From Bacillota bacterium (GTDB lineage: Bacteria > Bacillota > SHA-98 > UBA4971), in NCBI GenBank assembly GCA_012516125.1, contig JAAYXB010000005.1:1-58128 (forward strand): a stretch of DNA of 58,128 nucleotides, given 5' to 3'. Made by a program: the position numbers and the translations under genes. The notes beneath the pieces are model-generated. The model was given only the letters and a program-made list of their open reading frames with translations, did not search any database and was not told where the DNA came from. This document shows, piece by piece, positions 1 through 58,128 of the stretch (position 1 is the first letter of the stretch; each line of letters begins with the position of its first letter).

Positions 1-140
1 CTCGGGGACGGCGCCCCAAGCGGGGCGCGCTTCGCCAAAATCCGGCCCGTCCGGCTAGGCAGCCGGATTTTGACACCCCTCGTGCAATCACCGGCAACCC
101 CTCCCAAAAGTCGGGAGCATTTTTGCACCCCCACTTAGAG
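1..140 (+). repeat. Structured cloverleaf-like repeat, copy 1 (cut by window edge)
   Basis: This is the first of three same-orientation copies (others at 1575-1691 and 20157-20272). Complete copies are about 117 bp and begin and end with complementary arms, GGGTTGCCGGTG and CACCGGCAACCC; the left arm of this copy lies outside the window. Inside are two more perfect hairpins: GCGCCCC at 11-17 with GGGGCGC at 22-28, and AATCCGGC at 39-46 with GCCGGATT at 62-69. The block therefore folds as a closed stem carrying two hairpins. Weaker similarity to copy 3 continues past position 100 to about 137. It has no coding frame. Confidence 0.8.
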
Positions 141-1479: not shown

Positions 1480-1574
1480 GTGAACCCCTGCGAGGGACTA
1501 CCTGACTAAGTAGATCGCCATAAGGTAGATCGCCATAAGTAATCGCCGGTTCCAGAGAGCGCACGCGCCGTGCA

Positions 1575-1733
1575 GGGTTGCCGGTGTTGCACTCGGGGAC
1601 GGCGCCCCAGGCGGGGCGCGCTTCGCCAAAATCCGGCCCGTCTGGCTAGGCAGCCGGATTTTGACACCCCTCGTGCAATCACCGGCAACCCAAGACCTCG
1701 GAAAACGAGAGAAAACTATGAGCTCATACTTAG
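1575..1733 (+). repeat. Structured cloverleaf-like repeat, copy 2 (complete)
   Basis: This is a complete copy. The outer arms are GGGTTGCCGGTG at 1575-1586 and CACCGGCAACCC at 1680-1691, and both inner hairpins are conserved with only loop changes relative to copy 1. Similarity to the other copies fades out to about 1733. It lies between the IclR gene and panB and could affect readthrough. Confidence 0.8.
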
Positions 1734-19659: not shown

Positions 19660-20156
19660 CGAGGTATGGACGCTCCTTTGAAATCTTTCGGTATGCAGCC
19701 CTCCGGTCCCAGCACTTGCACGAACCGGCAACCAGGGGCGGCCGGCTGGATCGACGCTTGTTCGAAGCCTGCGCGGGCGTGCGACGTACTCCATCTTATG
19801 CGCTTATGCTCCGCCCCGAGCGGTGTTTCGTATGAATCTGTAAGCCCAAGCGCCATAGGTAATTACGGTTTGGCACAATCGACCTACTAAACGTAGCTTA
19901 ATTCTTCGTAAAAGGGCCTTTCCCTGCAGCCTGGGCCAGGAACCTCCCGCCGGTCTCGCCACCATACTCCCGCCTGCCATCGCAGCCCCGAGCTGGCGAT
20001 TTCTAAGTGAGGGTGCATGAGACTGTTGATCTTTCCCACATCATGGCAACGCAACTCGGTTGAGTCGCCCCACAGCCGTCGCCGTGCTCGACCAAACTGG
20101 CAGCTGCCGGGGAAGTTCAACAGTCTCGTGCATTAGTTCTTTTTCCAGTAGTTGCT
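19660..20156. other. Gene-poor region with degenerate repeat 'B' (about 19905-20010)
   Basis: I see no gene. Bases about 19930-20010 resemble 30985-31065 (CCACCATACTCCCGC and GAGCTGGC-type cores, with minus-strand peptides sharing AGVWW). Bases 20033-20070 resemble 4129-4165. These look like worn copies of older elements. Confidence 0.4.
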
Positions 20157-20315
20157 GGGTTGCCGGTGTTGCACTCGGGGACGGCGCCCCAAGTGGGGCG
20201 CGCTTCGCCATAATCCGGCCCGTCAGGCGAGTGGCCGGATTTTGACACCCTCTGCGCAATCACCGGCAACCCTTCCCAAAGTCGAGGGGATTTTCGCACT
20301 CTCACTTAGTGGCTT
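20157..20315 (+). repeat. Structured cloverleaf-like repeat, copy 3
   Basis: A complete copy with outer arms GGGTTGCCGGTG at 20157-20168 and CACCGGCAACCC at 20261-20272, plus the same two inner hairpins. Changes relative to copies 1 and 2 fall mainly in loops or are compensated in stems. Similarity continues beyond the right arm to about 20315 (CCCAAA...CACTTAG), matching the flank of copy 1. Confidence 0.8.
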
Positions 20316-29892: not shown

Positions 29893-30737
29893 TTGCTCAC
29901 CATGAATGAATCCCGGTCCATTATTCCCGTATTCGTGGATTGCCGCGAGAAGATCCCTCGCGACGAGCTTGAGGAGCCTATCGTTCGCGTGCTCGAGCGC
30001 AAGGACTACCTTGAGAAAGGCAAGCCGAAGATCAACTGGGGTGATCCGGAGGAAAAGAGAGCCCTTGTGGAATCTCCGGTCAAGGATGCCCGGCGCGTGG
30101 TTGACGTGGTCTCCCACCTTGAGGGCGTGCCTGGTGAGCTCAAACATGCTGCCCAGCTTCTGCATCGCGTGGCCGAGCAGGACATCGAGGAGAAGGACGG
30201 CAAGATACAGATAAGACGCAGGGTAGCCAAGGATAGGATAGTGTCCGTCACAGATCCTGAGATGAGGCATGGGCACAAGACCGCTCGAAGGGTGACTTCG
30301 AGCTGAACCTTGATGAGATGTGGGCCCGCTGCCTTGCAGGCCAGGTTACATACAAGACTCGCAAGACCAGGGACCACACAGGCAGGAGAACCCAGCTCTT
30401 CGTGTTCGATAACCAAGCGCGCTCTATCTGCCCGTTGAGAGACAAGTGTGTACGGGGGAGTAATCCGAGGACCGTAAGGATCGGCTACTACGAGACGAAG
30501 CGCGCGGTGGCGAAGATGAGGCAAGCCAGCTCCGAGTTCCAGGAGGAATACAGGAGGAGGTCTTACGTCGAGAGGGCAATTGCGTGGCTCACGGGCCACG
30601 GTGCAAGGCAGGCCCGGTATATCCGACGGAAGAAGACTCGGTTTCAGTTGCAGATCATCGCGGCGGTCCACAACATCGTCGCACTCTACAGGAATCTTGC
30701 CAGGAAGACAGAGCCTGTAGGAGCCATGGCGGGATAA
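29893..30737 (+). mobile_element. Broken IS1182-type transposase
   Basis: Two consecutive plus-strand frames (29893-30306 and 30318-30737) together cover the middle and C-terminal part of an IS1182-family transposase: RIVSVTDPEMRHGHKT in the first, then TYKTRKTRDHTGRRTQLFVF, CPLRDKCV and YVERAIAWLTGHGARQARYI in the second. A frameshift and loss of about 60 codons near 30300, plus a missing N-terminus, make it non-functional. Confidence 0.8.
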
Positions 30738-56423: not shown

Positions 56424-57117
56424 TCGAGTATGCCTCCTTGGAGTCCCGGGACGCAAAATCGCGCCTGATGATGGGGTGTTTTGAAGGACAAAGTATCGTC
56501 CTGGTCATGTTATGATATTCTATACTACTAATTGGACACTCATTCGAGAAATCCTTCATAACTGTCGGTAGTTAGATTCAGAACTTTTCGCGGCCGGCAG
56601 GTGCGCTATGCGGCCACAAAGAGGGAGAGACATCAAGATGCCCTCAAACTCGCGTTTGACAGCGATCTCTGTAAGCCCCTCCCGTGCTGGACCTAGCATG
56701 TGGCACAACTTTACGGGTCAGAAGGACTCAGAGCCTTTCGGCCCTGCGCCTTCACCGCAGAGCATCAGAATGTGTCGTTGGAAGATTAACTTGTGGTGCA
56801 TTCTGACACCATGGAGCGAGGAAGAAATTGCGGGATTGCTTCTTTGGTTCAGGGCTGTTTGTCGTGTTGGGACCATCGCAGTAGAGCGCAATGCTTGGAA
56901 CAACTGGCGATGACGCGGGATGGGCGGTGTAGTAGTAAGGACGGAACGTACCGGCGGTCAGGTTCAAGACATTGCTTCAACATTGCCGCCTGTGATAGGG
57001 GGAGGCAATTGCCCGCCTAAGAGTGATGATCGGTTGATAGAACCCATCTTTTCCACCGTTACCCGCGCGGCTCCTCGGGTTCCAAGGGCCCGAGTTTCCC
57101 TGTGGAGCGCACAGGCA
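56424..57117. other. Upstream region of the RpiR operon and gene-poor DNA
   Basis: No gene is recognised. An AT-rich patch at about 56505-56545 upstream of the RpiR gene is the likely site of its promoter. The remaining 550 bp have short frames on both strands without family resemblance. Confidence 0.4.
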
Positions 57118-57420
57118 TACGGATGGGAATATGGCTAAGGCTTCAAGCGTCTTATGGGAAAACAGCAGGGATTTGGCCAGCGTTTGGGTGTCGTCGGGCG
57201 TTACGACCACAATGATCGGTTCGAGCGAGTCGAGGATTATACGAGCCGTCGGCCGCGTCGACGTCCTCTCGCCCGGGATCGGAAGCTTCTCACCGGTCGC
57301 CTCTGCGTATCGCCTCGCACGTCGTTCAACGATCGCCTGCACCAATGCCGCGAGCAGCACCACGCACGCCAAGGTCTCCAGACACTCAGGGGTCTTTACA
57401 TACATTGCGCCAACGAAGGA
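57118..57420 (-). mobile_element. IS1634-type transposase C-terminal remnant
   Basis: About 100 codons match the end of IS1634-type transposases: MYVKTPECLETLACVVLLAAL, VQAIVERRARRYAEATG and TRPTARIILDSLEPIIVVV. The catalytic part is missing, and its upstream side is joined directly to an IS630 remnant. Confidence 0.65.
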
Positions 57421-57424
57421 ACGA

Positions 57425-57769
57425 CCACGAGGAACGCGATGAAGTTCTTGGCGAGCCTTCTCTTGAATACCGAATGTATCCACTCTCCGGTATTGGGATT
57501 GAGGGCACCATACATACTCACCCGCTCGTTGGTGCCTGGTGTCATGATCTTCTTTTGCTACCCTCGTCTCATCCGGCAGGACCGGACGTTGGGTAGTAGG
57601 TCGCAGTGGCACTCGTCCTGGTAGAACACAGTACAGGCAGAGCCAAATGCCCTGAGGAATACGTCTCGTCTATGAGTGCGACCTCGAAATCACTTATGGG
57701 GTCCGACTTCAGCGCAATGAGTTTCGGCCTTCTCCACCTAAAGCCAAGGCTGCGGAGGAGTCGTCTCAT
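57425..57769 (-). mobile_element. IS630-type transposase remnant
   Basis: The minus strand reads LRRLGFRWRRPKLIALKSDP-like N-terminal sequence, then, after a frame change, FYQDECHCDLLPNVRSCRM and, after a stop, TPGTNERVSMYGALNPNTGE and WIHSVFKRRLAKNFIAFL. These are the DDE-core segments of IS630 transposases. One frameshift, one stop and a truncated C-terminus make it dead. Confidence 0.7.
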
Positions 57770-57838
57770 GGTGAAGATGCTTAGCCGATATTTCGCAGGT
57801 CCGGCATTTCGAATTGGTGCCGAGGTCAGCGGCGTTGT

Positions 57839-58128
57839 TCACGTGGAATCATCTGCCAGTTTGCTGTAACTCCCGCGTGCAAGTCCAAGCCTGCGAATGA
57901 GATTCATGTGCTCGCCAGTGACGTTGACGACTGTGGCGAATCTCTCGCCGTTCAGCGTCTGGCCTGCTGTGTACGTTATGGACACGTACTTCTTGAGCAC
58001 TTGATGTGAAGTGAGCTTGCGGTCGTGTTTCTTCGCCAGGTGCTCCAGCAGGCAATAGGCGATCAGTGCTATGAAGCAAACCAGCGCCAGCCCCCGTACC
58101 CGTTCCTCTTTGTGTAGGAATACCGGCC
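57839..58128 (-). mobile_element. IS1634-type transposase, C-terminal part running off the window
   Basis: An open minus-strand frame from the window edge ends at a stop at 57839-57841. It encodes PVFLHKEERVRGLALVCFIA, then LIAYCLLEHLAKKHDRKLT and a helical tail, the C-terminal pattern of IS1634-type transposases. It differs from the remnant at 57118-57420, so it is a separate element. Whether the rest is intact cannot be seen. Confidence 0.7.

Follow-up and report, generated by a model that had tools for sequence, protein, structure and literature searches.

The hairpin that occurs three times in the window (the whole 58,128-nucleotide stretch analysed) is the middle of a larger, gene-less mobile DNA element (MITE), and the element represents a new, previously uncurated family of TA-type MITEs whose internal fold is unusually well conserved. 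Very probably, it is a non-autonomous DNA transposon that is moved by a transposase acting in trans and that inserts at the TA inside CTAG, duplicating this TA. A transposase made elsewhere would cut or copy the element, 120-230 bp long, at its short terminal inverted repeats (TIRs); insertion at the TA would leave the duplication, and the enzyme would be of the IS630 type. The element has spread to about 250 copies, and the survivors lie almost all between genes.

Boundaries, copies and insertion sites

The sequence-only reading matched three stretches (1-100, 1575-1691 and 20157-20272), and these do align as claimed: nothing disrupts the arms GGGTTGCCGGTG/CACCGGCAACCC or either internal hairpin, and it is mostly the loops that differ. 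It was also right in guessing that the stem is only part of the element. When the flanks of all copies are read and their ends paired, the element is bounded by CTAAGT...ACTTAG, and the 40 bp of similarity outside one arm belong to the element too, as its right outer arm. The long form spans about 197-230 bp, most commonly about 197-200 bp (a left arm of about 45, a core of 115-117 and a right arm of 38), and the short form, about 126 bp, has a 43-bp core with the loop TTGCACTCTCTCTTTGAGT in place of the branched centre. One core is combined with several outer-arm subfamilies, CTAAGTGAGGGTGC..., CTAAGTAGATCGCC... (window copy 2) and CTAAGTGTAAGTTC... (genome G013), and across these the core is more conserved than the outer arms. 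The flanks of copy 2 look different because its outer-arm subfamily is not that of copies 1 and 3. The TIRs are short: AGTGAGGGTGC in the main subfamily, with CTAAGTGAGGGTGC/GCACCCTCACTTAG as the paired ends, and a match over CTAAGT only in the other subfamilies, so that about 6 to 14 terminal bases are common to the element ends. In the list of open reading frames, none of 90 or more amino acids is confined to 1506-1733, and the element carries no transposase gene.

Table 1. Elements in the window, their parts, and the exact empty sites in related species
Feature	Position	Strand	Basis or remark
Copy 1	1..138	+	3' part of a long-core element; contig starts inside the core
Copy 1, right terminus GCACCCCCACTTAG	125-138		
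Copy 2	1506..1733	+	complete; CTAAGTAGATCGCC outer-arm subfamily; termini read directly
Copy 2, probable TA duplication	1507-1508 and 1731-1732		boundary rule from empty sites of sister copies
Copy 2, probable mobile body	1509-1730		same empty-site boundary rule
Copy 2, core	1575..1691	+	fold; covariance model match, E 5e-21
Copy 2, closing stem P1	1575-1586 with 1680-1691		fold, pair counts
Copy 2, stem extension P1b	1587-1592 with 1673-1678		fold, pair counts
Copy 2, stem P2	1595..1670 (1595-1598 with 1667-1670)	+	encloses both inner hairpins; fold, pair counts
Copy 2, inner hairpin P3	1602..1619	+	fold, pair counts
Copy 2, inner hairpin P4 (CAAAATCCGGC...GCCGGATTTTG)	1627..1663	+	fold, pair counts
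Copy 3	20003..20309	+	complete long-core element; second MITE inserted in left arm
Copy 3, probable TA duplication	20004-20005 and 20307-20308		
Copy 3, core	20157..20272	+	alignment, fold, covariance model
Second MITE nested in copy 3	20019..20127	+	109 bp; TIR GAGACTGTTGA(A/T)CTT(T)CCC
6-bp duplication GTGCAT around nested MITE	20013-20018 and 20128-20133		
Exact empty sites	L038/L017 v L118; L048/L023 v L129; L096 v L043; L055 v L050; L078 v L039; L143 v L006		loci compared

Other mobile DNA is present in the window. The nested MITE is unrelated to the main family (TIR GAGACTGTTGAACTTCCC, 108-109 bp) and has a second copy at L171:14862-14969; both copies found sit at arms of main-family elements, within the 6-bp duplications GTGCAT and CTGCAC. 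An IS1182-type transposase fragment (PF13751) lies at 30318-30737 (+). The last 1260 bp (56869-58128) match, at 100% identity, a 3.3-kb contig (G002:C51) from a different species of the genus. A PF01609 transposase ORF and a degenerate PF13358 stretch lie on that contig; this end of the window is a recently shared insertion sequence (IS) cut by the contig end.

Mobility can be read directly where element flanks are compared with the same loci in sister species. At six exact empty sites (Table 1), CTAG in the allele without the element corresponds to CTA[AGT...ACT]TAG in the filled one; at two more (L045 v L132 and L130 v L184), the empty allele has one later substitution (CCAG). The set covers two outer-arm subfamilies. 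Insertion thus duplicates the TA of CTAG, which is the target duplication that the earlier reading had proposed to look for. Insertion at TA with TA duplication is documented for IS630/Tc1-mariner elements (PMC2170065) and is the insertion signature of their transposition; by the title of Tenzen and Ohtsubo (1991), cited in PMC2170065, IS630 prefers the TA in 5'-CTAG-3'. The element has both of these IS630-type traits, the TA duplication and the CTAG target preference.

The repeat is not a product of chance: the 12-base arm GGGTTGCCGGTG, with at most one mismatch, has 246 forward and 247 reverse matches in the 3.24-Mb genome, far above the 12 and 13 matches of the reversed control pattern. An 842-kb sample of this genome, G000 (L031-L050, L171-L190 and the window), contains 72 cores read directly, which extrapolates to ~275 per genome; the genome-wide count that had been suggested as a check thus comes to about 250 (estimates about 235-275). 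Among 37 intact-ended matches in the 842 kb, a list that includes the same element on both strands, 21 have a nearest copy that is 95-97% identical, and flanks are unrelated between copies. Arm matches number 614, 267, 163 and 551 in four congeners and do not rise above background in the fifth. Searches with a covariance model of the core (R1) find 45 to at least 150 matches in each species of the own genus, with only 3 in G005; 1-16 in six of seven species of a second genus of the same family; and 80 and 31 in a third genus from another family of the class. The core therefore spans three genera and two families of one class; outside this class, a phylum sample of 149 genomes has no match at E below 1e-6. 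Genome G013, of a species from another family, holds about 80-90 copies, and many of its contigs begin or end inside elements of the main family; very similar, recently amplified copies are suggested there.

Contigs of these draft metagenome-assembled genomes (MAGs) often break inside the repeats, the window contig included. Such contig ends, both here and in G013, are what could be cited for treating the copies as remnants of a larger duplicated region or as an assembly artefact, a possibility so slight as to be negligible given the unrelated flanks and the orthologous empty sites in other assemblies. Further copies exist, they covary, and they are not part of a larger duplication; the original proposal would have fallen had this been otherwise.

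With genes called by a purpose-written hexamer-based gene finder, 66 of the 69 classifiable copies are intergenic in a genome that is about 85% coding (p about 1e-49), and the intergenic position described for the window copies is general. Their shared orientation is not: both orientations and all gene contexts are used, and tandem, convergent and divergent gene pairs are occupied without bias relative to all intergenic regions (p = 0.26). Targets for the family are scarce: the 842 kb of G000 (62.6% GC) contain 471 CTAG sites, about one sixth of the 2886 expected from base composition. Of the CTAG sites, about a tenth coincide with TAG stop codons, and in 14 of the 64 places scored the neighbouring gene ends in a TAA that the element's own end supplies. 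Since insertion turns TAG into TAA, the gene stays whole and its protein unchanged. There is no preference for stop codons beyond the CTAG census (14/64 v 49/217, p = 1); their share is that expected from random use of tolerable CTAG sites, those in non-coding DNA and at stop codons.

A conserved branched core

The core consists of a long closing stem and two internal hairpins. Each full window copy folds far below its shuffles as RNA (z -6.7 to -8.6), and the whole elements do so as DNA (z -9.3 and -7.0). RNAalifold on the raw MAFFT alignment recovers the structure only in part; P3 is misaligned there, and for this reason a structure-guided covariance model was adopted. An alignment of 96 copies, which are related sequences and were fitted to the structure model, has 92.3% of its cells paired. 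Both sides have changed in 24 of its 37 pairs; shuffles give 11.0 such pairs (0/500), and slid controls give 8-15. Distant copies pair with different letters, a change that in G009 and G007 reaches the closing stem as well. The compensatory changes that the sequence-only reading had hoped to see are therefore present, and at least two bacterial families share the branched fold despite their divergent outer arms. Paired changes could also arise without selection, through template-switch repair of inverted repeats.

A fold kept by paired changes across genera is also what one would expect if the repeats were structured RNA genes or regulatory RNA elements scattered through the genome, with a core that is transcribed and acts as RNA, and about one in five termini lie directly after a stop codon, where co-transcription would occur. 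This reading, one of those first offered for the repeat, is nevertheless improbable. Selection on one RNA strand should favour G-U over A-C, so the balanced mismatches in paired columns (83 G-U v 99 A-C, p = 0.27, with two P3 columns of clade-wide G-U left out) lend no support to a one-strand RNA and fit, though they do not prove, a constraint on the DNA inverted repeat. The core matches no Rfam family at gathering or permissive thresholds, the copies lie in both orientations and in all gene contexts, and their insertion polymorphism between species shows mobility. Of the structured RNA first proposed, the fold with its compensatory changes stands; selection on an RNA strand finds no support. 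As the centre of a transposon moved in trans, the core would matter as folded or cruciform DNA rather than as RNA, perhaps as a binding site or because it draws the two short ends towards each other.

Candidate mobilising enzymes

No transposase with matching ends, for which the original reading had proposed to look, was found in these fragmented draft MAGs. The six congeneric genomes, all draft MAGs, have no intact IS630 transposase (PF13358, DDE_3): G000 and G002 each contain only a degenerate stretch, and the match in G003 is weak. G013 has no PF13358 match, despite its many element copies. A DDE_3 survey of ten genomes of the class finds some in G015, G014 and G016, at loci that, when checked for the CTAAGT motif at ends flanked by TA, do not fit. 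The roughly 1.7 Mb searched in the genus and related genomes holds no gene-bearing element with these ends, and a scan of G013 with the TIR pattern gives no gene-sized pair among the places listed. The sole long case that looks complete, L044:4515-7691, is an element copy broken by a different IS with DUF1670 proteins. This insertion lies in the core and has two long ORFs of similar kind, one of them with a DUF1670 domain (PF07900), a domain that may belong to a mobile element not yet characterised. Because MAG contigs break in repeats, a multi-copy IS could be missing from the assemblies, and the absence of an enzyme is weak evidence.

That no IS630 enzyme was found with the elements speaks for a mover from another TA-duplicating transposase family, e.g., the IS427 group of IS5, or for an undescribed enzyme. 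We regard this as unlikely, though a serious minority possibility: PF13586 (IS5-type, DDE_Tnp_1_2) has no match in the high-copy genomes, the PF01609 transposases (IS4/IS5-type) present there lack CTAAGT ends and were set aside as mobilisers, and the pairing of CTAG target with TA duplication is a documented IS630 preference.

The element shares with REP/BIME/REPIN sequences and their RAYTs the character of a high-copy, intergenic, conserved palindrome, and hairpin recognition by a single-strand HuH transposase (RAYT, IS200/IS605) would explain why the core is the best-conserved part. REP and REPIN units, however, are 20-40 bp long and have neither terminal repeats nor target duplication, and TA duplication together with terminal inverted repeats is foreign to HuH transposition. 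The element here is larger (126-230 bp) and has both, and RAYT (PF01797, Y1_Tnp) is absent from its own genome and from four of five congeners, occurring only in G003. A REP-like origin is thus very improbable. The MITE half of the "MITE/REP-like" label first given to the repeat holds, by virtue of the TA-duplicated empty sites, the copy number and the intergenic position; the REP half does not, given the TIRs, the TA duplication and the lack of a RAYT.

A core that outlasts its outer arms is not something that a plain deletion-derived MITE needs, and this counts against the non-autonomous, IS630-like reading. Alternatively, the branched core may itself be the recognition structure. The element would then move in the form of folded single-stranded or cruciform DNA, or be caught by way of it, and the enzyme that reads this structure would be an undescribed one that still inserts at CTAG with TA duplication. 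We hold this to be rather unlikely; if true, it would explain both the contrast between a core with paired changes and the turnover of outer arms across families, and the lack of an IS630, IS5 or RAYT enzyme in genomes with hundreds of copies.

Relation to known repeats and significance

In the properties stated in PMC2229807, the element appears close in kind to ERIC, RUP and Correia elements; its CTAG target choice is like that of IS630. IS630 (Tc1/mariner superfamily) shares the TA insertion, CTAG preference and TA duplication (PMC2170065), whereas the element here has no internal transposase gene, and no intact IS630 transposase with these ends was found in the genus. RUP is a gene-less intergenic repeat of ~100 bp with over 100 copies and a TA target, for which mobilisation in trans by an IS630 (IS630-Spn1) has been proposed (PMC2229807). 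RUP has this partner IS with matching ends, while none was found for the element here, which also differs in sequence and size and has a conserved branched core. ERIC (also IRU or RU-1) is a 127-bp intergenic stem-loop element with short TIRs and TA at its ends (PMC2229807), present in hundreds of copies in some genomes (PMC10969869); it is enterobacterial, and what sets the element here apart is a core in two forms, long and short, combined with several subfamilies of outer arms. Correia elements (NEMIS) are gene-less, TA-flanked MITEs with hairpin-forming TIRs (PMC2229807); their TIRs are longer (24 bp) and their hosts other, while the element here shares only its outermost bases and conserves its centre.

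In an uncultured Bacillota genus, the family is the dominant component of intergenic DNA and a cause of broken assemblies. Its insertion rules can be read directly, and its insertion polymorphisms are many. It raises two questions: what moves an element without genes, and why its branched internal fold should be maintained by compensatory change even between families. Should transposition turn out to need the core, TA-type MITEs would amount to more than stripped IS ends.
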